Source of the DNA: a virus
DNA length: 39,488 nt
Direction: 5' to 3' (one strand)
IMG/VR virus record: IMGVR_UViG_3300048592_000495
Coordinates: 1-39,488 of that record
The notes beneath the pieces were generated by a model. It did not search any database. It was not told the DNA's origin and saw nothing but the letters and a program-made list of their open reading frames with translations. The translations under genes were made by a program, and so were the position numbers. Below, piece by piece: positions 4,638 through 28,916 of the stretch. Numbering within the stretch: position 1 is the stretch's first letter; the number at the start of each line of letters is the position of its first letter.

Positions 4638-5263
4638 AACTAGAATTAGAAAACCACCACGACGAGAAGCTAGGTATTTACGCTATCTCAAAGCCAGCAA
4701 AGCGCTCGGATATAAGCATTGCCGAGGAAATGGTACGCGTAATGGACGAGTCCGAGAAGGATTGGGCAGACAAGTACGGTATGAAAGCTTGGGCTATTGC
4801 TCACGCGCAGCTTACTAAGTCACCGGAGCCGCTATGTATCTTTGTAGTGCACCCGTCACTCGTTGAAGAAGGACTCAACCCGCTAAACGCTGGCTTTCCT
4901 AGCCGTATGATATTTAATGCTCAACTCATTGAAGCCGAGAAAGAGCTTGTAACCTACAAAAACGTCCGCAAGACTCTCTTTAACCCGAACACTGGTAAGC
5001 GCGAGATCCACGCAGCAGTGCCGGAAAAGCACACTACGCCTAATATCTTTGAACCAAAGGAAGGTTGTATGAGCTTCGTACACCGGAAGCCGAAGAAGGT
5101 ACAGCGTGTCTACCGTATCACTGTCCGGTACTGGTATCCACGTAAGATACTTGGCTTTTGGGTACTATGGCGACGTACGGAGCGCGTAGAAGGGCTCAAG
5201 GCGCAGATTTTCCAGCACGAAATACAGCACTTCGAGGGAAGTAATATCTTTCATAACAACTAA
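4634..5263 (+). CDS. def: Peptide deformylase
   Basis: 209 residues carrying the deformylase signature motifs. A degenerate motif 1 is WAIAHAQL (usually GxGLAAxQ). Motif 2 is EGCMSF with metal-ligand Cys145. Motif 3 is FQHEIQHFEG with metal ligands His195 and His199 and catalytic Glu196. Family enzymes remove the N-formyl group from nascent proteins. The usual LQHExDHLxG reads FQHEIQHFEG and motif 1 is far from consensus, as in other phage deformylases. Longer than many phage versions, with an insertion between motifs 1 and 2 that includes YKNVRKTLFNP. It overlaps both the previous gene (4 bases) and the terminase start, an unusual place for a translation-related enzyme. Confidence 0.82.
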   Translation: MKLELENHHDEKLGIYAISKPAKRSDISIAEEMVRVMDESEKDWADKYGMKAWAIAHAQLTKSPEPLCIFVVHPSLVEEGLNPLNAGFPSRMIFNAQLIEAEKELVTYKNVRKTLFNPNTGKREIHAAVPEKHTTPNIFEPKEGCMSFVHRKPKKVQRVYRITVRYWYPRKILGFWVLWRRTERVEGLKAQIFQHEIQHFEGSNIFHNN

Positions 5264-6750
5264 TGACGCTTAAAAAAGACCCACTATACGACCTAAAGCT
5301 TCTCGACTACCGTATGGAGAACGAGAAGTACCGATACTATGAACCGTCCGGAGTGGCGGAGGACTTCATAAATGCGTTTGGAAGCAATGACTACTTTATC
5401 TTGTTCCTTTCAGCCGCTAACGGTGTAGGTAAGACAGCACTGGCAACGAACATCATTGCCAATATATGCTACCCGCATAACAATCCTTGGTTTCGAGGTG
5501 GGCTTTTTGAGAATTGGGAGTACTTAAAGAAGGGACGTATCATTACCGAGTCAGACTTGGTGGAGAAGAACGTCGTTAATGAGCTTAAGTCGTGGCTACC
5601 GAAAGACCGGTACGTCACGAAGAAAGCTGGTAAGCACTACGAGTCACGTTGGTTTACTGATACGGGCTTCGATTGGGACATTATGACCTATGACCAAGAC
5701 CCTATGCAGTTTGAAGGAGTTACGCTCGGTTGGGCTTGGTTTGACGAACCGCCACCAGACGTACTACTCAAGGCGACAATCTCTCGTATGCGTAAAGGTG
5801 GTATTATTATCATTACAGCGACACCTATTTCCGGCAGCGCTCACTTGTACGATATGTTTGCCAATGGGCAGATTGAGACGCAAGTACAGCTTCGCGAAGG
5901 CGAGGAGCCGGTAACAGTGAAGCGTCGAGTATTTCACCTTACAGCGGACGTTGAAAGCGTTTGTAAGGAGCACGGTATCCGAGGACACCTAGAGCACAAG
6001 CATATTGAGCAAATGGTAGCCGAGTATCCGGAAGACGAGCGACAAGCTCGTGTCTATGGTAAGTTTCAACACCTTATTGGACTTGTGTATAAAAAATGGA
6101 ACAGAGACGTACACGTTATCGAGCCGTTTGCGCTTGACCCGCGCGAATGGTGTGTATATCACTCACTCGACCCACACCCGCGTAACCCAGACGCAGGGCT
6201 TTGGATAGCGGTAAACTCTAAAGGTACGAAGATCGTGGTGGACGAATACTACGAAAACCCAGACACGGTGCCGGATATGGCATACGACCTTAAGAAGAAA
6301 CACTCTATTTACCGTATGGAGACGCCGTTTACTGGCGACCCGTCTATGTTCATTGAAGACCAGCATACGCAGCGCTGTTTGGCGACTATGCTGCAGGACG
6401 AGGGACTTACCTACATTGAAGCGTCCAAGGCGCGTGCGGCAGCAGATAAGCGTATTGAGACTGCTTTGGACTACCGAGAAGTCAACGGGCAGATAATCAA
6501 GCCACCGGAGCTTTATGTATTCTCTACGTGTAAGCGCTTTATATACGAGATTGAGCACTGGCGCTGGCAAGAGTGGAAAGGCAAGACTGGCTTCGATAAG
6601 AACCGGAAGGAGCAGAAAGTGGACAAGGACGACCACACAATCGAGTGTGCTGGACGTATCCTTATCCAAGAGCCACAATTTAGACCGTATGTACCTCGTA
6701 CTTACTCACGTTCGACCGAGACTATGCGAAGTGACGACCCGTATGCGTAA
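5263..6750 (+). CDS. terL: Terminase large subunit (ATPase-nuclease packaging motor)
   Basis: 495 residues, normal for the family. ATPase: Walker A ANGVGKTA with Lys57, Walker B GWAWFDEPP with Asp161-Glu162, coupling motif TATP around 186. RNase H-like nuclease: acidic residues in SLDPHPRNPDAG (about 302), VVDEYY, GDPS (about 358) and DDHTIECAG (about 449). It translocates DNA into the prohead at the portal and cuts concatemers. Start ATG 5263 overlaps the deformylase stop (TAATG). Downstream lies the 1-kb RNA-rich gap and then the portal gene. Confidence 0.95.
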   Translation: MTLKKDPLYDLKLLDYRMENEKYRYYEPSGVAEDFINAFGSNDYFILFLSAANGVGKTALATNIIANICYPHNNPWFRGGLFENWEYLKKGRIITESDLVEKNVVNELKSWLPKDRYVTKKAGKHYESRWFTDTGFDWDIMTYDQDPMQFEGVTLGWAWFDEPPPDVLLKATISRMRKGGIIIITATPISGSAHLYDMFANGQIETQVQLREGEEPVTVKRRVFHLTADVESVCKEHGIRGHLEHKHIEQMVAEYPEDERQARVYGKFQHLIGLVYKKWNRDVHVIEPFALDPREWCVYHSLDPHPRNPDAGLWIAVNSKGTKIVVDEYYENPDTVPDMAYDLKKKHSIYRMETPFTGDPSMFIEDQHTQRCLATMLQDEGLTYIEASKARAAADKRIETALDYREVNGQIIKPPELYVFSTCKRFIYEIEHWRWQEWKGKTGFDKNRKEQKVDKDDHTIECAGRILIQEPQFRPYVPRTYSRSTETMRSDDPYA

Positions 6751-6776
6751 AGTGTTGATAACAGGTTGTACACAGC

Positions 6777-6805
6777 TAGAATAACGTGTGGGTAGTCGCT
6801 ATAAT
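6777..6805 (+). promoter_or_regulatory. Candidate promoter for a small RNA
   Basis: A perfect TATAAT at 6800-6805 with TAGAAT 17 bases upstream at 6777-6782 (weak -35). It lies just after the terminase stop and about 75 bases before a strong terminator, so its transcript would be about 100 nt and non-coding. Confidence 0.45.
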
Positions 6806-6811
6806 AAGTGA

Positions 6812-6911
6812 GGTGGGAGAAGTAGAGCACTCACACCTTGCTAGGCAGAAGGGACGCGACCCTTTCTTTCTTACTTAAGTAAAACCGCCGCTTACGAACC
6901 GGCGGTTTTAC
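6812..6911 (+). ncRNA. Candidate small RNA 1 between terminase and portal genes
   Basis: Bounded by a TATAAT box and a perfect terminator hairpin. The interval contains GTGAG near 6808 that can pair with CTCAC near 6830, and AAGGG-ACGCGA-CCCTT at 6849-6864. No start codon with an open frame. Existence depends on the promoter being real; the structures are directly visible. Confidence 0.4.
6879..6911. terminator. Strong bidirectional intrinsic terminator
   Basis: GTAAAACCGCCG at 6879-6890 is perfectly complementary to CGGCGGTTTTAC at 6900-6911, a 12-bp stem with a 9-base loop. The GC core is flanked by an A run and a T run inside the stem, the usual design of a bidirectional rho-independent terminator. 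Confidence 0.85.
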
Positions 6912-6943
6912 TATGGTAAAATTATTGGAGCTATACTTGCTGG

Positions 6944-7027
6944 CGATCACGGCAGTTGTTCAATTGAGAGCAACACCGTCTCGTTGGGTAGCTTCCACAA
7001 TCTAGCTTCCGTTATGGGAGCTTTTTT
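6944..7027 (+). ncRNA. Possible small RNA 2 between terminase and portal genes
   Basis: TATACT at 6932-6937 could be a -10 box without a clear -35. The stretch downstream folds as GTTGTTC/GAGCAAC near 6956-6976 and ends in an intrinsic terminator at 7004-7027. The word TAGCTTCC occurs twice (6989 and 7003), only the second within the terminator stem, so the two could compete for the GGGAGCT arm. Promoter evidence is weak. Confidence 0.3.
7004..7027 (+). terminator. Intrinsic terminator
   Basis: AGCTTCC (7004-7010), loop GTTAT, GGGAGCT (7016-7022; one G-T pair), then a run of Ts to 7027. Typical + strand rho-independent terminator. Confidence 0.75.
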
Positions 7028-7037
7028 GCTTCTTTGG

Positions 7038-7046
7038 TTATCCACA
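7038..7046 (+). other. Perfect DnaA-box sequence
   Basis: TTATCCACA, the consensus high-affinity DnaA site, lies in the non-coding region. A second exact TTATNCACA, TTATTCACA, is at 7650-7658. Others are listed in the findings. Role as an origin is inference. Confidence 0.45.
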
Positions 7047-7085
7047 TTTTAATAACAGTTCGTATGAAAATAACGTGAAAAAAGG

Positions 7086-7094
7086 TGGTATAGT
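7086..7094 (+). promoter_or_regulatory. Extended -10 promoter of a structured RNA
   Basis: TGG followed by TATAGT (7089-7094). A start seven bases downstream would be 7101, exactly the first base of the 10-bp arm GTATGACAGC of the RNA below. No good -35, as expected for an extended -10 promoter. Confidence 0.5.
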
Positions 7095-7100
7095 ATTGGG

Positions 7101-7232
7101 GTATGACAGCAAATGCCATTTTGAATATTTACGCAGCAAGCCAAGCTTTTGGGCTGTCATACAACTACCCTTTGGCTTGTGGCGTAAGTCTTCAAACAAC
7201 GTCGTAAATGCACGCAATTTTGCGTGTTTTTT
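7101..7232 (+). ncRNA. Candidate pseudoknotted small RNA with own promoter and terminator
   Basis: Arm A (7101-7110) is perfectly complementary to A' (7153-7162). Arm B (7128-7144, containing TTACGC and CAAGCCAA) pairs with B' (7172-7188, TTGGCTTG and GCGTAA) with one 2x2 internal loop. The order A-B-A'-B' is that of an H-type pseudoknot, or of two mutually exclusive folds. An extended -10 box precedes it and an intrinsic terminator closes it at 7211-7232, giving a transcript of about 130 nt. A GTG-initiated frame of 69 codons crosses the region but has no RBS and runs through the terminator, so I consider it non-coding. Not a tRNA or a family I recognise. Confidence 0.55.
7211..7232 (+). terminator. 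Intrinsic terminator
   Basis: CACGCA at 7211-7216 pairs with TGCGTG at 7221-7226, followed by six Ts. The A and T residues next to the loop can extend the stem by one pair. Confidence 0.75.
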
Positions 7233-7305
7233 CGTGTCACATTGCAACTCGGGCTTCTTGCAATTAAAATACCTAGTCCGTTAATAAATCAGAGTAGTTG
7301 GTTTT

Positions 7306-7388
7306 GTGTAGGTTCCGTTGCGGGATACTCAATACTCCGGTATTGGTGGAGAACCCCGTATGCAATGCAGCTACATTGCAACCTACGC
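7306..7388 (+). ncRNA. Candidate three-way-junction RNA with UNCG tetraloop
   Basis: P1 pairs 7306-7314 with 7380-7388 (GTGTAGGTT with AACCTACGC, 9 bp including one G-T). P2 pairs 7319-7324 with 7355-7360. Inside it P3 pairs CAATAC (7330-7335) with GTATTG (7340-7345) across TCCG, i.e. the exceptionally stable C(UNCG)G tetraloop. P4 pairs TGCAATG (7361-7367) with CATTGCA (7374-7380). The arms stack without overlap except one base. It resembles riboswitch or catalytic-RNA architecture but no anticodon, T-loop or known riboswitch core is apparent. Strand is assumed from surrounding transcription. Confidence 0.5.
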
Positions 7389-7405
7389 CAAGTCCGCTAC
7401 TCAAA

Positions 7406-7485
7406 GCTCTTGTTCAGATACATATGCGAAAGCAGGGAAAATGACTGTCCGACTTGTCACCCTGCCGTTGAATATGTACCGGAGC
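7406..7485 (+). ncRNA. Long irregular stem-loop
   Basis: Nested pairings GCTC/GAGC (7406 and 7482), TACATAT/ATATGTA (7419-7425 and 7472-7478), GCAGGG/CCCTGC (7432-7437 and 7460-7465) and TGAC/GTCA (7442-7445 and 7456-7459), with an A4 bulge. Immediately follows the three-way junction and may be part of the same RNA. Confidence 0.42.
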
Positions 7486-7698
7486 GAGAGAGTTCTTAAG
7501 TACAGTAAAAAATAGGTTTCTCGTCGTTTTGTTTAATGACAATAGTATTCTTAAGAAACTGAAAGGGACTGATACTTGGAGGACACCGACACCGACCAAA
7601 TAATTTTTCTCGATAATAGCCCTTCAAAGGGTAGAAGTCGGGCTATACCTTATTCACAGAAAAACACTTTGACATTTTACTTTTTAGTGCTTGCAGTA

Positions 7699-7707
7699 TG
7701 TTATAAT
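7699..7707 (+). promoter_or_regulatory. Extended -10 promoter of the portal/capsid operon
   Basis: TGTTATAAT is a perfect extended -10 box. A TTGACA at 7669-7674 is 27 bases upstream, too far for a standard pairing, so the promoter probably relies on the extended element or on a phage factor. Transcription would start near 7714 and give a leader of about 85 nt before the portal ATG. Likely drives the virion genes. Confidence 0.6.
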
Positions 7708-7742
7708 TTACGGGACGCCAACCAAATAAGTAAGAAAGAGAG

Positions 7743-7791
7743 TCGCCAAAATACCTAACGCTCTAAGGTAACATTACTGGCGATATTTTTT
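7743..7791 (+). terminator. Attenuator-like hairpin in the portal leader
   Basis: TCGCCA (7743-7748) pairs with TGGCGA (7778-7783), with an inner TACCT/AGGTA stem, followed by six Ts ending six bases before the portal start. An earlier CGCCA copy near 7716 could pair with the same TGGCG, allowing an alternative fold. It may be a leaky terminator or attenuator, or may block initiation. Function inferred. Confidence 0.45.
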
Positions 7792-7797
7792 ATATAA

Positions 7798-9750
7798 ATG
7801 GCGACGGCTAAAACCAACAAAACAAAAGTCAAAGAGTACGACGAAGCTCCGGAAGAAGAAGTAGAGGAGCAAGACTCGGACACAGAGACACAAGCTCGAC
7901 CAGACTTCACCGAGCTTATAAAACAGGCTACTTCCGAATGGGAGCAGGGCTGGTGGTTTATGAAGCCCCGTTGGGACGAGTGGGCACTCCGACTCAAGCT
8001 ATACAATAACCAGAAGCGAGACAAAGAAAGCGTTGGTGATACAACGTTATTTTCCGTATTTCAAACTATTCTCGCTTCGCTCTATGAAGACCGCCTAGCT
8101 GCTACCTTCTCACCTCGAGAGATTGGAGACGACGAGATCGCCGAGAACCTAGACCTAGTAGCCGACTACGACTACGACATAATGGAGAAGGACATTATCG
8201 ACTACGAGTGGGACTTTGAGACTGCCTTCTTTGGACGCGGTTTGCTTTGTGTAATGGACTTTGACGAGGATACACTTACACCTTCACCGTACGTATGGAA
8301 CAGAATGGTTACTGTACGTGACCCAGAAGCGAGCAGTGTAAACGGCGACCGCTCCGGACGTGGCGCTTCACGCTTTATTTACCGTGAAATCCGAATGACG
8401 AAAGACCAGTTACGCGAGAATGACGAGTATTTCGACTTTGAGGACATTAAAGCTACCGGTGCCAAGAACGATACTAAGAGCCCGCTAGACCAGTATATGC
8501 GTGATACTGCAGACGCTTCCGGACTCGGAGACGTGCAGAAGTTCAGCAATGTAGACGGCGATAACGCTACGCTTCGCTTACGTGAAGGTTTCACCCGCTG
8601 GAACGGTAAGCTTTGCTTTGTAACCCTAGCCGACAACGGTAAAAAGGTTATCCGGTATCAAGAGCTAGAGCGCAAGACAATTCCTATTGTTGACCGTGTA
8701 TTGTTCCCAATTCCAAATAACTTTGACAGTGTATCTATTCCGGACTTGGTAGAAGACAAGCAGCGAGCTCGAGCAGTAGCTTTGAACCTTTCACTCAAGG
8801 GAGTAAAGGCAAATCTACACCCAATGTACTTGTTCGATAAGAATAAGATTGACGAGCGCCAAGACTTCAACTTTGCCTTCAATAAGTTTATTCCTACCAA
8901 CGGCAATCCTTCCGGAGCCGTAGTACCGCTCATTAAAGACCATATCAAGCAAGACGTGAGCTTTATTATGGATACGCTCGACCAGAGCGCTCAAAGAGCT
9001 ACTGGAACGCCAGATATTAAGCAAGGAGCCCGTCCAGACAACGAAGGTACTGCAACTCGTGACGCACTCGTAGCGCAGGGTTCAGAGAGCCGTTATGGGC
9101 TTGCCGCACGTATCTTTGGCTGGAGTGAGCGTCGTTTCTGGCAAGAGTACTACAACCACCTCAAGGAGAATATGGACGACGGTATCCACGAGAAAATGGT
9201 ACGTGTTGTTGGTGCTCTCGGAGCCGCGTGGCGACCATTTAAGAAGGCAGACTTGGTTACTCCAGACGACCACGCAGACCCTAACATTAAGATTGAAAGT
9301 AAGGCAGTTGCAGACGCTCGACGCTTCAATGAAGCCCAGCTTTTCCGTGACTATATGAAATTGGCAGCAGCCGACCCAACGGCTCAAATCCGTTCTGGTA
9401 TGCGTCACTACGGCAAGCTTATTGGTATGAAGCAGGACTTAGTAGAGCAGATCTACCCACCTACTATCGACGAATTGCGAGCCGAGGAGGAAAACGAAAT
9501 GATTAACGAGGGTAAGAAAGCGCTCGTACTTCCAGAAGACGACCACTACCTACACCTTCAAATCCACAATAAGCTTCCGGACTCACCGGAGAAAATTGCT
9601 CATATGAACGCTCACAAGCGGGCGCTCATATTGCAGAAGGTAAACCCAGATATGGTGCCACAGCAACCAGCGCAGGGAGGAGGACTGCCGCAAGACCAGT
9701 TGCCTAACCCAGCTCCGGAGCGGACGCGGGCTTTACCAGCTAACCTATAA
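7798..9750 (+). CDS. Portal protein (P22/N4-like)
   Basis: 650 residues, the size of podovirus portals. It follows the terminase and precedes scaffold and capsid genes. An acidic, disordered N-terminus (EEEVEEQDSDTE) leads to a helix-rich body with conserved-looking blocks such as WEQGWWFMKPRWDEWALR and QRATGTPDIKQGARP, and a Pro/Gln-rich tail. Portals form the dodecameric DNA gate at one capsid vertex and dock the terminase. The start lacks any SD and is preceded by an AT-rich stretch. Assignment rests on size, order and overall resemblance. Confidence 0.85.
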   Translation: MATAKTNKTKVKEYDEAPEEEVEEQDSDTETQARPDFTELIKQATSEWEQGWWFMKPRWDEWALRLKLYNNQKRDKESVGDTTLFSVFQTILASLYEDRLAATFSPREIGDDEIAENLDLVADYDYDIMEKDIIDYEWDFETAFFGRGLLCVMDFDEDTLTPSPYVWNRMVTVRDPEASSVNGDRSGRGASRFIYREIRMTKDQLRENDEYFDFEDIKATGAKNDTKSPLDQYMRDTADASGLGDVQKFSNVDGDNATLRLREGFTRWNGKLCFVTLADNGKKVIRYQELERKTIPIVDRVLFPIPNNFDSVSIPDLVEDKQRARAVALNLSLKGVKANLHPMYLFDKNKIDERQDFNFAFNKFIPTNGNPSGAVVPLIKDHIKQDVSFIMDTLDQSAQRATGTPDIKQGARPDNEGTATRDALVAQGSESRYGLAARIFGWSERRFWQEYYNHLKENMDDGIHEKMVRVVGALGAAWRPFKKADLVTPDDHADPNIKIESKAVADARRFNEAQLFRDYMKLAAADPTAQIRSGMRHYGKLIGMKQDLVEQIYPPTIDELRAEEENEMINEGKKALVLPEDDHYLHLQIHNKLPDSPEKIAHMNAHKRALILQKVNPDMVPQQPAQGGGLPQDQLPNPAPERTRALPANL

Positions 9751-12157: not shown

Positions 12158-12679
12158 ATGTCACAGTATAGCGAAATGGCTTATGCCGAATTAAAGGCAG
12201 CAGCAAAGGAGCTAGGACTTCCGGCTACCGGCACTAAAGAGGAGCTCTTAGAGCGTCTCGAAGGTGCTACTCCGGCAGAAACGCCAGAGGAGCCGGAAAC
12301 CGAAACTCCAGAAGAACCGGAAGCTCCGGAGGAAACCGAGGAGGAACCGGAAGAACCAGTAGCTAAAGCTAAAGTTTCAGACCGCGAGGTTGAGAAACAA
12401 TGGCGCGGGGACGCACAGAAAATGAAAGACCACCTAGCGAAGCAAAAGAAAGTGTCGATTATGATACCTCTCGAGGTAGGAGTCGCACCGGAAGTTGCGG
12501 AGAAGATACCGTTTATTGTGAATATGAACGGCTACCGCTTCTCAATTAAGCGCGGAGTCTTCGTAGAAGTGCCAGAACAGGTCGCAGATATGATTAAGGA
12601 ACGTCTCGAGTCCGAAGGGAAAATCGGACGAAACCTACGCATTGACCGCAACCCTAATACCCTAGAAGCTCTTGGTTAA
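12158..12679 (+). CDS. SAP/HeH-domain protein, 173 aa
   Basis: Residues about 3-35 (YAELKAAAKELGLPATGTKE and on to ELLERLEG) fit a SAP or HeH helix-extended-loop-helix motif, typically DNA binding. A Pro/Glu/Thr linker of about 35 residues follows, then a compact C-terminal domain. Proteins of this plan are frequent beside phage capsid genes and are thought to be head or head-completion components. An AAGGAG lies 19 bases before the ATG, too distant for a normal SD. Confidence 0.72.
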   Translation: MSQYSEMAYAELKAAAKELGLPATGTKEELLERLEGATPAETPEEPETETPEEPEAPEETEEEPEEPVAKAKVSDREVEKQWRGDAQKMKDHLAKQKKVSIMIPLEVGVAPEVAEKIPFIVNMNGYRFSIKRGVFVEVPEQVADMIKERLESEGKIGRNLRIDRNPNTLEALG

Positions 12680-12689
12680 TTACTAGAAA
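12678..12689 (+). repeat. 12-bp leader repeat before decoration-like gene
   Basis: Exact second copy of AATTACTAGAAA seen at 11099-11110, in the 30-base gap before the next gene. Confidence 0.5.
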
Positions 12690-12708
12690 CGTATAAACCA
12701 AAAGTATT

Positions 12709-13017
12709 ATGGCAGTTAAAGCAACACTTAACGCAAAGGGCGCAGACATTGAGTTTGGTACCGTAACAGGTGCCGACCCAGCAGCCGTCGCAACCGACGC
12801 GGAAGGTAACGTAGTGCTTACCATTGCTGGTGCAGATACAAGTGATCTTGTATTTATCACACCGCGTGGACTCGCAGCCGGACTTGTAATCGTAGAAGCT
12901 ACGGTTACAGCCGCAAATACAGTGACCCTAAAGGCACTGAACGCGACCGAGACAGCTTCTATCGACGACGCAGCGTCTAGTTTCGACTATATGCTCGTTA
13001 AGGTAGCAGCAGCGTAA
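12709..13017 (+). CDS. Capsid decoration-like protein, 102 aa
   Basis: Small Ala/Val/Thr-rich, beta-strand-rich protein with alternating pattern around GNVVLTIAGADTSDLVFITP and ending in a YMLVKV strand. Similar short beta-sandwich proteins next to capsid genes decorate or stabilise phage heads. No catalytic residues. Assigned from composition and position only. Confidence 0.6.
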   Translation: MAVKATLNAKGADIEFGTVTGADPAAVATDAEGNVVLTIAGADTSDLVFITPRGLAAGLVIVEATVTAANTVTLKALNATETASIDDAASSFDYMLVKVAAA

Positions 13018-13023
13018 CCAAAC

Positions 13024-13077
13024 GCTCCAAACCCTGCTTTGCTCCTCAATATGGGGAGCAAGGACAGGGTACGGAGC
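13024..13077 (+). other. 22-bp stem-loop between virion genes
   Basis: GCTCC (13024-13028) pairs with GGAGC (13073-13077), ACCCTG (13031-13036) with CAGGGT (13065-13070), and 13039-13047 with 13053-13061 across an AATAT loop. A single-base bulge and one 2x2 loop interrupt it. No T run follows. It probably protects or processes mRNA between the decoration-like and adaptor-like genes. Confidence 0.6.
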
Positions 13078-21485: not shown

Positions 21486-24400
21486 ATGGCAGACTACACC
21501 TCAACACAGAGACTACGAAGTCTCTTTGAAGACGACGAGGAAAAGAAAAAGAAGGAAGGTGTAACTGTTTCGACTCCACAGTCAGACAGTGTCGACTTTT
21601 CGCGTGCCGACAACGCTGCCAGTAATCTTGAAAAAGCGTTTGCAGACTTTGATAAGGTAGCTCCAAGCCGCCAACAGAAACCCCAAGAACAAGCGCCTAT
21701 TGTAGAAGCAGAGAAGCCACGACAGAAGGGCGAATACCGCGGTAACTTCTTCCAGAAGCTCGGACAGTCATACGTAGACGTCATTAAATCAGTACCAAGC
21801 CAGACCTTAAAAGGTGTGGGTATGGTTTTTGGCGCTCCGGAAAACGCTGCTAACTTCGCTACTGACCAACTAATGAAGATTGACTCCTATAACCAGTTTA
21901 TGCAAGACGCCGCCAGAGGTATAGACCTTGGAAAAGGACGCGCTGCAGTAGCCATATTAAACACGGGAGCCCTTGGTATTGGTGACTTGAAACCAGTACT
22001 CAACACTAAAGTTGGACAGGAAATTGCAACCAATATTTCTGACAAGACTTCTAACCTACCGCTTAAAACGGTAGCTGCCTTTCGTGCAATTGGTGAAGGT
22101 ACATACAAAGAGTACCGAGACGCAATGCTCGCAGATCGTTACGACCCAGAGAACGGGAACGTAGAAAAGTTCTTGTATGAGCTTCAAGACTCTGGTGTAC
22201 AATCTCTCGTTGGTATCTTGCTTACTACTGGAACAGTTCTTGCGACACGTAACCCTAAAGCCGGTTACGCAATTGGTGGCGCTTACTATGGTGCACTTTC
22301 AGCCGGTGAACAAATCCAGTCAGAAGGAAAGGTTACTAGCTCCGGTAATATCTACATTGACGTAATAGGAGACTCACTCATTAACAATGCGCTTCTTGGT
22401 GTATTCAAAATGCCAGCGGCAGCAGTAAATCGAGTACTTGCTACCGGTGCTCTCGAGGGTTCTACAGAAGTAGTACAGTCTCTTTTGAAGTTCGCTAACA
22501 GCTATTCTCAAGCAGATACAGAGCAGGAACGGCAGGAAATATTGGAAGACGCTGCCTACTACGTAAAGAGTGGAGCTATTCTTATGGAGTTTGGAGTTGG
22601 TGCCGTAGTCGGTTCCGTAGCGCAAGGAGGAGTTGAAGTTCTCAATACTGCGGCTACCAGTAAGACACGCACAGACGTTAAAAACTCTCTTGCTTTTGAT
22701 ATTGAAGCAGCTATTGAAGCCGGAGACGTCGACCCCGCTACTATCTATCAAAATGGAAAGGACGGAGTACTTACTCCACAGTTTGCCGAAGGTCGTGTAA
22801 ACGACGTTGCCCAGAAGCTAGGTAAGCTTGACCCTTCACTTGAAGCGCAATACCGAAGTGAAGTAGATATAAACAACGAGACAATGGAAAGCGTTATCGC
22901 TAAAGGCGAAGCTCTCATTGACTCTTTTACTGCGCCAACGGCACAGGGTACCGAAGAAGTTTTAAATACAGCCGGAAGTACTAAAGCACCAGAAGAACAG
23001 AAGCTAGGAGACGTCTTTAAAGACATTGAGCAAGTAGCAGACTTAATTGCACGATCGCAGCGCGGCGAGGAGCTTTCAGTAGCCGAACAGTCAGCACTTA
23101 TTCAAGCACAGCAATCTTTCGCAGACTACGCGAGTGCTTTTGAAGCAACTACAGTTTCACTTCCTAACGAAGTAGCGCCTAGTGAGCCACCTATTGCAGA
23201 AATCCAAGTGGTAGACGTAGGAGACAAGGTAGCCGTCAAATACAGCGCAGACGCCGGAGAAACAGCCCTACAAATAGATTATGACCTAAACGCACTCTAT
23301 AACTCACCAGAGGACGCTACAGAAGCCGCAATCAATAGTATTGCTGCCTTCATTGAGTCACAAAGGAGCAATCCTAATATCTCACCGGTAGCGCAACGCC
23401 GTCTCGAAGACATTATGCAGAAGCTACGACCAGCCAAGCAGACTATCAAGCCACCTAAGAAGGAGAAGGACACCGCAGCGCCAGTAGAAACCGCACCGAC
23501 AGCAGGAGCAATTGCTATCGGAACCGAGGTATATTTTGCCGGACGTCCACGCAAGGTAACGGCTATTATTCCGTTTGGTGGCGAGACTAAATACCAGCTT
23601 ACCGACGACAAGGGCAGGGATATTTACACAAATGAAGCGGGAGTTAAGACAGCTATTGAAGCTAAAGAGCTTGGTATTACCGAAGAAGAAGTGCTCAAGC
23701 GTCGTAACGAAGCCAACGGCACTCCAAAAAAGAAAAAGGAGACGGAGCGCTTTACTATCAAGCCAGACAAGGAGCTTGGTTTTGTAGTGCTTGAGAAGAA
23801 AGGAGAAAAAAACGTAGTTGCGGGTACGTTCAGCACCGAAGAAAAAGCAAAAGAGTTTATTGCCGGACAACAGAAGACCGAAAAGAAAACTCAAAAAGAA
23901 AAAGTGAAGGAGGTTATTGACCAGAAGGGCGAAGCGTCTATAAAAGACATTGCAGATATTACCGGTATTCTTGAGCCAAATATTCGTCGTATTCTTGGAG
24001 TAGGAGCAAAGCAAGGCGAGTTTGAACGAGTCGATACAGGTGTTTATCGTATCAAGGTAGGCGACAAAGAAATTGCTTTTGTTATGGCTGCCGACGCAGT
24101 CGAGACACTACCAAAGCTTGCAGCACAGGGCTTTAAAGCAGATATGATTTTCTTGGATATTCCTTACGAAACCAAGGCAGTTAAGGGAGGAAACCGAGGA
24201 GTAAACTACGACTTTTTAAGTGTAGAAAACTTCCGAAAAGTTGTGTTCTCAATCAAAGAAATTGTGCGCGACGAAAACACACCGGTTATTCATATGTACT
24301 CACAAGCGGAGTCCGGTATGGCAGAAATGACTCGCTACAATGAAGTCTTTACCGAGCTCGACTTTAAGCCGGTAGCAAAGGGGGAGTGGCAGAAGACATA

Positions 24401-27400
24401 CAAGGACGGCTCACCGGTAGCGTTTCCAACTCGTAACGGCTCAATGGTAACAAAGCCGGAAGGTATCTTGGTATTTACTCTATCCGGAGAAACAGACAAG
24501 CAGCTTGAGTCGCTACAATTTAAGACAGTACGACCAAAGGGCTACCAAACCGAGAAGGCAGAGGAAATGCTTAAAGCAATGATTGAAATGACGACCGACG
24601 AAGGGGACGTTGTTTTTGACCCGTTTGCCGGTTCCGGAGTGACTGGTGCTGCAGCAGTTAAGGCAGGACGTCGCACTGTAGTAATCGAAAAAAATGCAGA
24701 GGTAGCGGAAACAGTTACAAAGCCACGAATACAAAAGGCAGTAAACGAAAGAATAAAAGCCACTAATGTCACAGCGGAAGATACTGCCGAAATGGTAATG
24801 GCTAACGGAGCTCCAGAAAAAGCAGAGCGAATTGTTGCCAATGCCAATACACTCACGATCGTACCGGACAATCTCGACGTAGAAGTTGAGCTATTTAATG
24901 GAAAGGCGACTAGACCCGAGCAACTTGTCAGCAAGACTAAATTAAACGGTATCTTTGGAAAGGAAGACCGTATTGTATTCACTGTTCTTATTGAAGAAGC
25001 GCGGATTTATGACCAGAAGAAAAAGACAGTAGAAAACCGAGAAGTAGTTTATTTGTATAACAAAACTGCAACCGGAGAGACTAAACTTCGTGCGTCAGCT
25101 CTTGGACTTGTAGAGCAAAACCTTACCGTTGGACAAGAAGTCGTCCTTGATAAAAGCGAGCTCAAAGCAAACGGTAGAAACTTTAAAGCAGTAGACCGTG
25201 AAGGCAACGTCTTTGCAGAACCTAAAGCAGTAAACTATCAAAATAACGTGCTTCGCAAGCAGGATATTTTGGATACGTTCGACCCAGCGAAGACAGCCGG
25301 ATACTACGACGCTGCTACCAGACAGCGACTATTTGAGCGCTTCATACTGCCAAAACTAAAAAAGATTGGAACCGTAGAAGACGGAGAAACAGTCGTTTAC
25401 TATCAACCAGCCGACGGAGAGAGCGGGCAATACGTGAACCGAGATCTAGCTCGAGTATGGTGGATAGCAGATATTAACGCAGACTTTGTTGTTAAAAAGG
25501 TAAAGGAAAATGAGCTTATTTCTACCGGCTTTGCTCAAAAGGACGAAGTAGGAGAAGCAATCTATTTCCCAGCCAAAAAAGACAGGATAGGCGTTACAGA
25601 CGGAAGACTTCGCAACTTAAATAATGGTCGCTTTGTTAGCCGAAGCCAAGCTAAAAAACTAGCAAGTAGCGAGTTTGCTGCCGTTTCAGAGCGTGTAAAA
25701 AGAGCAGAACCAGCCGGAAAGCGTCCGAGCTCATTTGCTAGTCGTGAACCAGCGAAGGACTCAAAAATGGGAGACGTGGCAATGAACCGCGAGGAGCTCT
25801 CAAAGGGCAGCCAAGTAGAATACGACAAGCTTGTTAAGCGTTCAGAAATTGCCAGAGTTCTTACAACCAAACTCAATGCCGTTGTACGTACCGGAAAGTT
25901 CCGCCAAGCTGCGCTTGGTATCTACAAACAAGATACGGACACTATCCGTATGAGTAATAAAAACTTCTCTACTCGAGAAGGCGGACAGCTTACTACACTC
26001 GTACACGAGTTAGGGCACTATATCGACTACTCAATCCAGAAATACCGCAATGTTATTCCAAAGGCAGAGCTTAAGCCACTCCTAGAAAATTATGGTGCAG
26101 GGTTTGACTCCGTAGCTAAAAACAAGGTTCGCTCCGAAGCGTTTGCAGAGTTTCTCCGGTACTACATTACTATTCCAGCCGAAGCCAAGAGCCGAGCTCC
26201 AGAGTTCTATAAGTACTTTGTTGACTCACTCGAGAGCTTGCCAGAGATTAAGGAAGCACTTAATACAGCACAGGTAGAGTTCCGACGTTGGGCAGAACAG
26301 CCAGCAACCGCAAAGGTCGCGGCACAGATTAGCTTTGAGCAGGAGGACAAAGAAGGTTTCAAGACCAAGCTAAATACTACAGTCAACTCAATTTACCGTG
26401 ACGCTGTCAACGACCTACACGCTATTTCTCAATTCTCGGAAATCGCCAAGAAGTCAAAGAAAGACTTGGAAGCGGATAAAGACCCGTACATTCTTGCCCG
26501 CAATATGCGTGGTTGGATTGGGCGTGCTCAATATTTCCTAGAGTCCGGTACCACTGGACGCGACTTTTGGAAGAAGGGAGATAACGGACGCTTCTATGTA
26601 GACAAGAAGGGTAAGTCACTAAAAGAGATTTTGCAGCCAGTCGAAGATAAGAACGCACTTAACGACCTTTCTGTATACCTTGTATCACGTCGAGCACTTG
26701 AGCTTTCAGAGCGCAATATTACTTCCGGTGTGACGCCAGAAGACGCGGAAATCGCTTTGCGTGAGATTGAAGCCAAGCACCCAGAGTTTGCACAAGTCGC
26801 TCGAGATCTTGATACCTACCAGAACCACCTACTCGACTACCTCGAGGAGAGCGGCGTACTCAATCCAGACGACCGAAAGAAAATGCAGGAAGCTAACAAA
26901 ATGTACGTACCGTTCTTCCGTGTCCACGAGGAGCTTACAAATAAAGGATATATGGGAGGTAAGAAAATACCGACCAAGTCTCCTATTAAGCGTATAAAGG
27001 GCAGTGAAAAGGACATTATCGACCCGCTGGAGTCTATCGTAAAGAACACGTATGTACTTTTAAACGCTGCAGAACGAAACAATGTAATGCGGGCAATGGC
27101 TAACTTGGCAGAAAACGACAAGAACCTTGGACGTCTCTTTGAGCGTGTACCAGTAGACCAAACAAAGGTAGCGTCAGTTAATCCAAAAGAAATAGTCTAT
27201 CAAGCGCTTGGTGCAGATACCGTTCTTGGTAAGGCAATGCTACCAGCCGAGGTTCAAGCTGCTATTGATATAGTCGTACCGGAAACTATGGTTAATATTT
27301 TCCGTCCGGCAATGTTCCAGAAGGGCAATGTTGTTGCGGTAATGGATAATGGAAAGCCAAAATACTACGAGTTAGACAAGGACTTATACGAAGCAATCAA

Positions 27401-28916
27401 CGCAACCGAAGTTGAAGAAGTTATTGCAGCAGTAAAAATACTCTCATACCCAGCGCAATTCCTACGCGCCGGTGCGACACTTGCTCCGGAGTTTATGGTA
27501 CGTAACCCGCTTCGTGACTCTATTGGTGCTGCCGTAATGAGTAAGAACGGCTTTGTACCGTTCTACGATACGATACGCGGCTTCGCTTCGCTTGTGAAAA
27601 AGGACGAGTATTACGACGCTTTCGTTATCGCAGGAGGTTTGCAGTCTACTATTGTGGCTCAAGACCGAAACAACTTAAAGCAGAGTAAGGACGAGCTTTT
27701 GAAAAGGTCGGCTCGTATTAAGAAGCTAATTAAAAACCCGCTTGAGGTGCTACAGATTATTAGCTCATACACTGAACAGGCAACTCGTATTGGTGAAGCT
27801 CGATTGGCATTGAACGCCGGAAAATCAGCAACGCAAGCAGCGTTTGACGCTCGAGAAGTAACACTAGACTTCCAGCGAGCCGGTGCCAAGGCACGTTCAT
27901 TAAACAAGCTATCAGCGTTCTTTAACGCCAAGATACAGGGTAACGACAAGCTTATCCGTACGTTTATTGAGACTCCAGCAAAAGCTACTTTGAAGGCAAC
28001 TCTCTACATTACTTTACCGTCAGTTATTCTTTGGCTCCTCAATCAAGACGAAGAAGGTTGGGACGAAATACCACAGTGGCAAAAAGACATATTCTGGCTC
28101 GTAAAGGTAGACGATACTTGGTACCGTATTCCAAAGCCATTTGAGCTCGGTGTCCTCTTTGGTTCTATTCCGGAGCGTTTCTTGGAGTATCTAAAGGACA
28201 ACGACCCAGCAGGGCTACAGGAGGTAACACGTTCATTTATCACCGGACTTGTACCAAATCCAATTCCAACCGGAGTCGTGCCTATTCTTGAAAACACGAC
28301 CAACTACAGCTTCTTCCTTGACCGTCCAATTGTGTCTCCGTCGCTTGAGAACCTACCTAACCAAGACCAATACACGAATACCACTAGCGAGACGGCTAAA
28401 CTTATTGGTGCTGCAATAAACTACAGTCCGGCAAAGGTAGATAACCTTTTGTATGGCTACTTTGCAGGGCTAGGACGTCACACCGTAAACACTGCGGACG
28501 CTATCTTAAAGGGAACCGGTATCGTAAACAGCGTTCCGGAGCCGGAGAAAACTAAGGCAGATATTCCAGTCTTGAAAGCATTTGTCGTACGCGACCCAGC
28601 GGGAAGCTCAAGCAATAGTGTTAATGACTTCTACGAAAACCGCACCGAAGCGACGAAGTACTACAACAAGTACAAAGACCTTCTCGAAGCTGGAGATCGT
28701 GACGGAGCGCGGGAGTATCTAGCAGAGCACCCAGAAATTAAGCTCTATAAACCATACAACCAAATTGCTTCGCAAATATCAGACCTTCGTAAGCTATCGA
28801 ACCAAGTTTACGACTCCGAAACAATGAGTCCGGAGGAGAAGCGAAAGAAGATTGACGAGCTTAACCAACTCATTACAGATACAGCGTATCGAGCAAATAA
28901 CATTGAATTGCAATAA
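21486..28916 (+). CDS. Giant polyvalent virion protein: winged helix, DNA N-methyltransferase, HExxH peptidase, LPD38
   Basis: 2476 residues. Order: a mainly helical N-terminus with hydrophobic glycine-rich stretches (about 230-380); a small beta domain near 675-740; a winged helix (about 807-862, SIKDIADITGILEPNIRRIL); a beta-class N4/N6 methyltransferase with catalytic FLDIPY at 889-894 (IPY in place of PPY) and SAM motif DPFAGSG at 1045-1051; a zinc peptidase motif VHELGHYID with His1507, Glu1508 and His1511; and a C-terminal LPD38-like region (about 1990-2230) with a hydrophobic segment near 2172. Such polyvalent proteins travel in the virion and act on entry, like P1 DarB protecting DNA from restriction. 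The peptidase might process virion or host proteins. Confidence 0.85.
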   Translation: MADYTSTQRLRSLFEDDEEKKKKEGVTVSTPQSDSVDFSRADNAASNLEKAFADFDKVAPSRQQKPQEQAPIVEAEKPRQKGEYRGNFFQKLGQSYVDVIKSVPSQTLKGVGMVFGAPENAANFATDQLMKIDSYNQFMQDAARGIDLGKGRAAVAILNTGALGIGDLKPVLNTKVGQEIATNISDKTSNLPLKTVAAFRAIGEGTYKEYRDAMLADRYDPENGNVEKFLYELQDSGVQSLVGILLTTGTVLATRNPKAGYAIGGAYYGALSAGEQIQSEGKVTSSGNIYIDVIGDSLINNALLGVFKMPAAAVNRVLATGALEGSTEVVQSLLKFANSYSQADTEQERQEILEDAAYYVKSGAILMEFGVGAVVGSVAQGGVEVLNTAATSKTRTDVKNSLAFDIEAAIEAGDVDPATIYQNGKDGVLTPQFAEGRVNDVAQKLGKLDPSLEAQYRSEVDINNETMESVIAKGEALIDSFTAPTAQGTEEVLNTAGSTKAPEEQKLGDVFKDIEQVADLIARSQRGEELSVAEQSALIQAQQSFADYASAFEATTVSLPNEVAPSEPPIAEIQVVDVGDKVAVKYSADAGETALQIDYDLNALYNSPEDATEAAINSIAAFIESQRSNPNISPVAQRRLEDIMQKLRPAKQTIKPPKKEKDTAAPVETAPTAGAIAIGTEVYFAGRPRKVTAIIPFGGETKYQLTDDKGRDIYTNEAGVKTAIEAKELGITEEEVLKRRNEANGTPKKKKETERFTIKPDKELGFVVLEKKGEKNVVAGTFSTEEKAKEFIAGQQKTEKKTQKEKVKEVIDQKGEASIKDIADITGILEPNIRRILGVGAKQGEFERVDTGVYRIKVGDKEIAFVMAADAVETLPKLAAQGFKADMIFLDIPYETKAVKGGNRGVNYDFLSVENFRKVVFSIKEIVRDENTPVIHMYSQAESGMAEMTRYNEVFTELDFKPVAKGEWQKTYKDGSPVAFPTRNGSMVTKPEGILVFTLSGETDKQLESLQFKTVRPKGYQTEKAEEMLKAMIEMTTDEGDVVFDPFAGSGVTGAAAVKAGRRTVVIEKNAEVAETVTKPRIQKAVNERIKATNVTAEDTAEMVMANGAPEKAERIVANANTLTIVPDNLDVEVELFNGKATRPEQLVSKTKLNGIFGKEDRIVFTVLIEEARIYDQKKKTVENREVVYLYNKTATGETKLRASALGLVEQNLTVGQEVVLDKSELKANGRNFKAVDREGNVFAEPKAVNYQNNVLRKQDILDTFDPAKTAGYYDAATRQRLFERFILPKLKKIGTVEDGETVVYYQPADGESGQYVNRDLARVWWIADINADFVVKKVKENELISTGFAQKDEVGEAIYFPAKKDRIGVTDGRLRNLNNGRFVSRSQAKKLASSEFAAVSERVKRAEPAGKRPSSFASREPAKDSKMGDVAMNREELSKGSQVEYDKLVKRSEIARVLTTKLNAVVRTGKFRQAALGIYKQDTDTIRMSNKNFSTREGGQLTTLVHELGHYIDYSIQKYRNVIPKAELKPLLENYGAGFDSVAKNKVRSEAFAEFLRYYITIPAEAKSRAPEFYKYFVDSLESLPEIKEALNTAQVEFRRWAEQPATAKVAAQISFEQEDKEGFKTKLNTTVNSIYRDAVNDLHAISQFSEIAKKSKKDLEADKDPYILARNMRGWIGRAQYFLESGTTGRDFWKKGDNGRFYVDKKGKSLKEILQPVEDKNALNDLSVYLVSRRALELSERNITSGVTPEDAEIALREIEAKHPEFAQVARDLDTYQNHLLDYLEESGVLNPDDRKKMQEANKMYVPFFRVHEELTNKGYMGGKKIPTKSPIKRIKGSEKDIIDPLESIVKNTYVLLNAAERNNVMRAMANLAENDKNLGRLFERVPVDQTKVASVNPKEIVYQALGADTVLGKAMLPAEVQAAIDIVVPETMVNIFRPAMFQKGNVVAVMDNGKPKYYELDKDLYEAINATEVEEVIAAVKILSYPAQFLRAGATLAPEFMVRNPLRDSIGAAVMSKNGFVPFYDTIRGFASLVKKDEYYDAFVIAGGLQSTIVAQDRNNLKQSKDELLKRSARIKKLIKNPLEVLQIISSYTEQATRIGEARLALNAGKSATQAAFDAREVTLDFQRAGAKARSLNKLSAFFNAKIQGNDKLIRTFIETPAKATLKATLYITLPSVILWLLNQDEEGWDEIPQWQKDIFWLVKVDDTWYRIPKPFELGVLFGSIPERFLEYLKDNDPAGLQEVTRSFITGLVPNPIPTGVVPILENTTNYSFFLDRPIVSPSLENLPNQDQYTNTTSETAKLIGAAINYSPAKVDNLLYGYFAGLGRHTVNTADAILKGTGIVNSVPEPEKTKADIPVLKAFVVRDPAGSSSNSVNDFYENRTEATKYYNKYKDLLEAGDRDGAREYLAEHPEIKLYKPYNQIASQISDLRKLSNQVYDSETMSPEEKRKKIDELNQLITDTAYRANNIELQ

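Follow-up and report, generated by a model that had tools for sequence, protein, structure and literature searches.

Between the terL and portal genes of a 39,488-base IMG/VR virus record (the whole stretch analysed here, hereafter the window) lies a gap of 1,047 bases, which appears to encode a large structured RNA built from two modules: a 5' pseudoknot closed by an intrinsic terminator and, immediately behind it, a second structured core. Judged from base changes in relatives, the structures themselves and their arrangement in two modules are close to certain, while the chances that both modules form one RNA of ~550 nt (7099 to ~7645) are about even. The RNA probably represents a new class, widespread in phages and in integrated mobile elements of Patescibacteria (CPR), that would serve either the control of late transcription or as an RNA machine during infection. 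New large structured RNAs with comparable covariation are rare.

The features of the gap and its flanks are collected in Table 1; the TerL encoded ahead of the RNA belongs to PHROG families 5653/10250. The signals noticed in an initial annotation of this stretch were found again. The extended -10 lies at 7086-7094 as described, arm A (7101-7110) is indeed perfectly, i.e. 100%, complementary to 7153-7162, and arm B, annotated as 7128-7144/7172-7188, is confirmed within a somewhat longer B/C pairing (7120-7144 with 7172-7196, 84% complementary). The terminator, placed at 7211-7232, consists of a stem at 7210-7227 plus a T-run to 7232.

Table 1. Positions in the window of the RNA elements, the associated signals and the flanking genes
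Feature	Position	Strand	Remark
TerL gene	5263-6750		upstream flank of gap; PHROGs confirm terL
DnaA-box-like TTATCCACA	7038..7046	+	48 nt ahead of extended -10
Extended -10 promoter TGGTATAGT	7086..7094	+	predicted start ~7099-7101
Pseudoknot helix A, 5' strand	7101..7110	+	covariation; sequence GTATGACAGC
Helix C+B, 5' strand	7121..7145	+	covariation
Pseudoknot helix A, 3' strand	7153..7162	+	covariation; inside loop of B
Helix B+C, 3' strand	7172..7196	+	covariation
Intrinsic terminator	7210..7232	+	stem 7210-7227, T-run up to 7232
Core P1, 5' strand GTGTC	7234..7238	+	compensatory changes
Core small pseudoknot PK2, 5' strand CGGGCT	7250..7255	+
Core PK2, 3' strand AGTCCG	7275..7280	+
Core hairpin P2	7293..7401	+	many compensatory pairs inside terL/portal family
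Core hairpin P3 (CATATGCGAAAGC..GGAAAA)	7412..7485	+	most conserved part
P3 apical loop strand CCGACTT	7449..7455	+	long-range helix
Core P1, 3' strand GACAC	7588..7592	+	compensatory changes
Small hairpin	7618..7633	+	directly ahead of 3' box
3' box AAGTCGG	7635..7641	+	pairs with P3 loop; no conserved structural element of core follows
TTATTCACA box	7650		49 nt upstream of second extended -10
Second extended -10 TGTTATAAT	7699..7707	+	ahead of portal gene
Portal gene	7798-9750		downstream flank of gap; PHROGs confirm portal

On the + strand, the 141 nt of the 5' module fold with -50.2 kcal/mol (z = -4.85), a value equalled by 0 of 200 shuffles, and the fold of the opposite strand is weaker (z = -3.38). 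An ABA'B' arrangement of 10+9 bp of such strength was reached by only 2 of 500 dinucleotide shuffles. Relatives were gathered from IMG/VR by TerL and portal searches; their gap measures ~1-2.3 kb, and nine distinct homologues hold the element, all of them in the gap behind terL. Among these nine, 98.9% of the cells of helix A are paired and double changes occur in 6 of its 10 pairs, with a covariation score of 0.753 against 0.191 when shuffled and at most 0.217 when slid. The helix reads GTATGACAGC/GCTGTCATAC in the window, GTATGCAAAC/GTTTGCATAC in L025, GAATGAAAAC/GTTTTCATTC in L009 and GTATGGTTTT/AAGACCATAC in L003. Helix B/C is paired in 94.2% of cells and double-changed in 11 of 23 pairs. 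For these helices, as for the long-range helix and PK2 discussed below, columns were arranged manually in blocks free of gaps, and two of the blocks contain a constant linker. The homologues scored 105-122 bits with a covariance model built on B/C, and the rest of the 51 loci at most 27 bits; since the model was trained on those same homologues, its informative part is that nothing else matches.

On the evidence of these alignments, A and B/C cross as a pseudoknot, with a conserved extended -10 upstream and the terminator downstream. This is the topology that had been proposed for the + strand, and the check suggested along with it, a search of homologous phages for conserved stems with compensatory substitutions, found both helices kept by compensatory change. 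With helix A, 22-23 bp of B/C and a linker of 10-13 nt, the geometry is tight for a classical coaxial pseudoknot. Since pairs in the region change in a compensatory manner, a protein-coding gap was rejected for the window's group; in relatives whose TerL falls below ~70% identity (47-70%), the gap mostly holds small protein genes. L035 (6590-6910; TerL 70% identical) is devoid of this type of pseudoknot RNA and has promoter, hairpin and terminator units of its own. In relatives, the terL, portal and major-capsid genes are themselves split by inserts of ~0.8-1.1 kb that resemble inteins or introns (L013 2391-3358; L048 8242-9308; L061 6827-7590), and an ORF similar to homing endonucleases begins at the end of terL in L025 (1656-2000) and L004 (6489-6881).

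The signals around the pseudoknot are conserved as well. A -10 of the TGnTAnnnT type is kept among the homologues of the window's RNA, and in relatives it lies ~6-7 nt upstream of a predicted start near arm A, so that the transcript should start with helix A. The position of the extended -10 thus supports the annotated coincidence of arm A with the predicted start. The terminator is conserved in the homologues, and terminators of other sequence precede the core in several unrelated phages. A pairing between helix C and the foot of the terminator (ATTTACG/CGTAAAT, picked by eye in the window) was considered as a switch and dropped, its conservation being absent from the relatives. No conserved antiterminator hairpin was seen, which makes a simple base-pair switch unlikely. 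Two further units resembling promoter, hairpin and terminator lie between terL and the pseudoknot RNA, at 6797-6876 and 6932-7027 of the window, with a TATAAT at 6800 accompanied by GTGAG/CTCAC and a terminator at 7004-7027; part of the unit at 6797-6876 appears conserved in L009 and L005.

In relatives, the conserved and indel-tolerant pattern does not end at the terminator but extends beyond it. The second structured core occupies 7234-7641 and begins 2 nt after the T-run. RNAalifold, run on six sequences, closes this domain with P1 and finds double changes in 36 of 80 pairs; P1 itself occurs in the compensated forms GTGTC/GACAC, GTAGC/GCTAC and GTAAC/GTTAT. In the small pseudoknot PK2, whose partners were chosen by eye before counting, double changes affect 5/5 pairs. 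Hairpin P3 could be followed in 19 sequences, where 94.5% of cells are paired and 16 of 22 pairs are double-changed, the covariation score of 0.695 comparing with 0.195 when shuffled and at most 0.116 when slid. The corresponding match of covariance model R2 in the window spans 7397-7504. The apical loop of P3 finds its partner box ~80-250 nt downstream, after a conserved run of the GG(T/G)AAAA type: a complement of at least 5 nt is present in all 19 loci tested, the summed length of 118 exceeds that of loops swapped between loci (mean 53, maximum 83), and 6/6 aligned pairs are double-changed.

The existence of the core changes the interpretation of the pseudoknot, which had been annotated as an autonomous RNA of about 130 nt and now appears as the 5' module of something larger; autonomy is also at odds with the fact that unrelated phages carry the core behind 5' modules of other kinds. 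No conserved promoter was found between terminator and core in the window's family, and together with the position of P1 2 nt past the T-run this means that the core seems to need read-through. We infer that transcription starts at arm A, that it terminates at 7232 and that read-through carries it into the core. The two modules could instead be independent neighbouring genes, one for an autonomous 133-nt pseudoknot sRNA and one for a separate core RNA. The strong terminator between them speaks for such a separation, as do the HNH (L071) and RNase H (L088) genes upstream of the core and the lack of a clear strong ABA'B' upstream in L095, L100, L101 and some phages, but we consider it unlikely in view of the constant order of the modules in the window's family, where hardly any spacing separates them, the missing conserved promoter and the promoter - structured RNA - terminator unit that recurs before the core in unrelated phages.

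How far the core extends beyond this family was explored with a 16-base piece of P3, ATGCGAAAGCNNGGAAAA, used as a pattern query against IMG/VR. Among the 37 stretches retrieved, ~17 new loci, mostly from unrelated phages, show the whole P3 fold; the remaining stretches are coding or chance matches. Rejected for want of a P3 fold were the pattern hits L066, L067, L069, L070, L072, L074, L075, L076, L083 and L092-L094 as well as the genome hit L096; L033 is a chance match within a coding gene. With covariance model R2, 26 loci reach scores of 68-103 bits. In unrelated phages, the core is again preceded by a -10 of promoter type, by RNA structure and by a hairpin that resembles a terminator. The ABA'B' order is clear in L021 (14+12 bp), L073 (11+15 bp) and L071 (9+10 bp), and a similar arrangement was judged by eye in L086 and L084. 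Covariance model R1 gives no significant match on unrelated carriers, so the 5' module there is shared in topology and not in sequence. A clear 5' module is absent from some carriers, for example L079, L091, L100 and L101. L071 has a terminator nearly identical to that in the window's relatives, followed by an HNH gene before the core. This HNH endonuclease gene (12476-13027) and the RNase H gene of L088 (2309-2755) both abut the core on its 5' side, like insertions within the RNA, and the modules therefore need not always share one transcript.

The RNA also occurs outside phage records. TerL relatives at 47-54% identity were located on MAG contigs with mixed labels, two of them Patescibacteria. 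Scans of Patescibacteria covered 380 genomes with the pattern and 238 genomes of one class with R2, and the RNA was found in three of the genomes scanned (L095, L100, L101); in two other phyla, represented by 198 and 199 genomes, it was not found. These genome searches rest on a loose first look, by which copies can be missed. In all three genomes a serine-recombinase/integrase gene lies ~0.5-1 kb downstream of the RNA. One copy resides on a 221-kb contig with genes for EF-G, EF-Tu and L2 on one side and for ComEC, RecJ and PGK on the other, which identifies it as a mobile element in a Patescibacteria chromosome. Possibly the host of the window's own virus is a Patescibacterium too, and the RNA gives testable access to the phages of this group, about which little is known.

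These neighbourhoods bear on the suggested link to packaging. An RNA like phi29 pRNA, or one tied to a cos/pac region, would fit the location between terL and portal in the window, the terminase genes close downstream in L073 and L091, and the HNH or terminase-like genes that flank the RNA in L071 and L086; in some other carriers, terminase or HNH genes lie within ~2 kb. Both are phage RNAs near packaging genes, and pRNA resembles the 5' module in size (~130-170 nt). To our knowledge, however, pRNA exists only with the phi29-type (gp16) motor, whereas the phage here has an ordinary TerL. There is also no match to the pRNA family or any other family of Rfam, a large core follows the 5' module, and integrase genes lie near this core in the three Patescibacteria copies. 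At TerL identities of 47-70%, most phages have small protein genes at this place instead. A packaging function is very improbable.

A role in replication, in which the transcript would prime or regulate phage DNA synthesis from flanking DnaA boxes, is just as improbable. It is suggested by the ~5-fold enrichment of TTATNCACA, a DnaA-box-like site, near the RNA (0.49 vs 0.09 per kb in 23 carrier loci, p ~1e-5), by the boxes 48-49 nt ahead of both extended -10s in the window and by the RNase H gene that abuts the core in L088. Yet an exact box is nearby in only 10/23 loci, the boxes are equally compatible with promoter regulation, no skew switch occurs at 7 kb and no replication gene is regularly adjacent.

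Comparison with described RNAs places the new one apart. At the gathering threshold, neither the window's RNA nor 14 other carrier loci gave a match to any Rfam family, the antitermination RNA families included, and two regions (one of them 6751-7797) searched at E<=10 returned only unrelated weak matches. BLASTN of the gap and the carrier RNAs against 50,697 phage records gave none or short weak matches, nothing convincing, and no paper on this RNA was found in the open-access literature. The RNA is outside all 4,227 Rfam families and has no known relative at the family level, in line with the new family that had been considered; lacking also a convincing match in the phage records, it was invisible to culture-based work.

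Large structured phage RNAs as such have precedents. GOLLD and ROOL are large phage RNAs, and GOLLD varies in its 5' part while its 3' part is conserved (PMC12286853). The new RNA is likewise large, noncoding, rich in pseudoknots and present in phages and prophages, and shares with GOLLD the variable 5' and conserved 3' parts. It differs in being shorter, in opening with a pseudoknot that ends in an intrinsic terminator and in showing no match in sequence or structure to either family in Rfam. GOLLD and ROOL often occur near tRNA islands; for the new RNA, no tRNA or tmRNA was found in the window or 12 related loci, and a single tRNA across 14 carrier loci. The carriers seen here are elements of Patescibacteria and phages with no relatives in culture, and the RNA would be another case, besides these two, of an elaborate RNA common to phages of many kinds.

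A trans-acting "ornate" RNA of the same kind, of which the whole 550 nt or the core would accumulate during lytic growth as a particle or RNP, is accordingly the main rival to an antitermination leader and comes close behind it, although we regard it as somewhat doubtful. The 5' pseudoknot would then be one variable peripheral domain and the "terminator" its U-rich hairpin. Besides the size, the several pseudoknots and the contrast between 3' and 5' parts, the wide spread over unrelated phages without one fixed gene neighbour argues for such an RNA, and the ORFs near or between the modules resemble inserts in large RNAs. Apart from the missing Rfam match and tRNA island, a conserved strong terminator in the middle would be odd for a long RNA needed in quantity.

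The reading we tentatively prefer, at somewhat less than even chances and from analogy with known systems, is control of read-through or antitermination by the leader. The EAR RNA (eps-associated RNA) is said to contain a pseudoknot. The put RNA of HK022 is an antitermination RNA that acts on polymerase (PMC9378689), and the late promoter of lambda is followed by an early terminator that is read through via Q (PMC6606751). What these systems share with the new RNA is that a promoter is closely followed by RNA structure or by an early terminator, with genes beyond it that polymerase reaches by read-through. The layout of the put/EAR type is found here, with a structured RNA at the 5' end, a predicted promoter and terminator, and co-directional genes, the last weakly above background: the first downstream ORF is co-directional in 16/18 loci, barely more than the 70% of all ORFs in the carriers (228/324). 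Unlike these systems, the new RNA is larger, has two long pseudoknotted helices followed by a 400-nt structured core, and is without an Rfam match.

In the proposed mechanism, RNA polymerase would start at arm A and the pseudoknot would fold while emerging. By default, transcription would stop at the terminator and leave a stable RNA of ~133 nt. Suppression of termination might come from the pseudoknot itself, through an action on polymerase like that of put RNA, or from a phage factor, as known from the late promoter of lambda. Polymerase would then continue into the core and probably into co-directional genes behind it, which in the window are those of the portal operon. The core would fold compactly and act in the infected cell, either in cis with the late mRNA as its target or, once processed, as an RNA of its own. 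Given the second promoter at 7699 ahead of portal, expression of the portal operon may also be independent of read-through. The modular design, with a changeable pseudoknot leader, a terminator and a conserved core, raises the question of RNA-based control of late transcription.

Two further observations concern the window itself. Directly ahead of the portal start, at 7742-7797, a T-run and the ATG come after a hairpin, TCGCCA...TGGCGA; the arrangement is kept in relatives and possibly represents a translation or termination signal. Further downstream, an ORF of 2,476 aa (21486-28916) encodes a giant protein with a DNA-methyltransferase-like segment.
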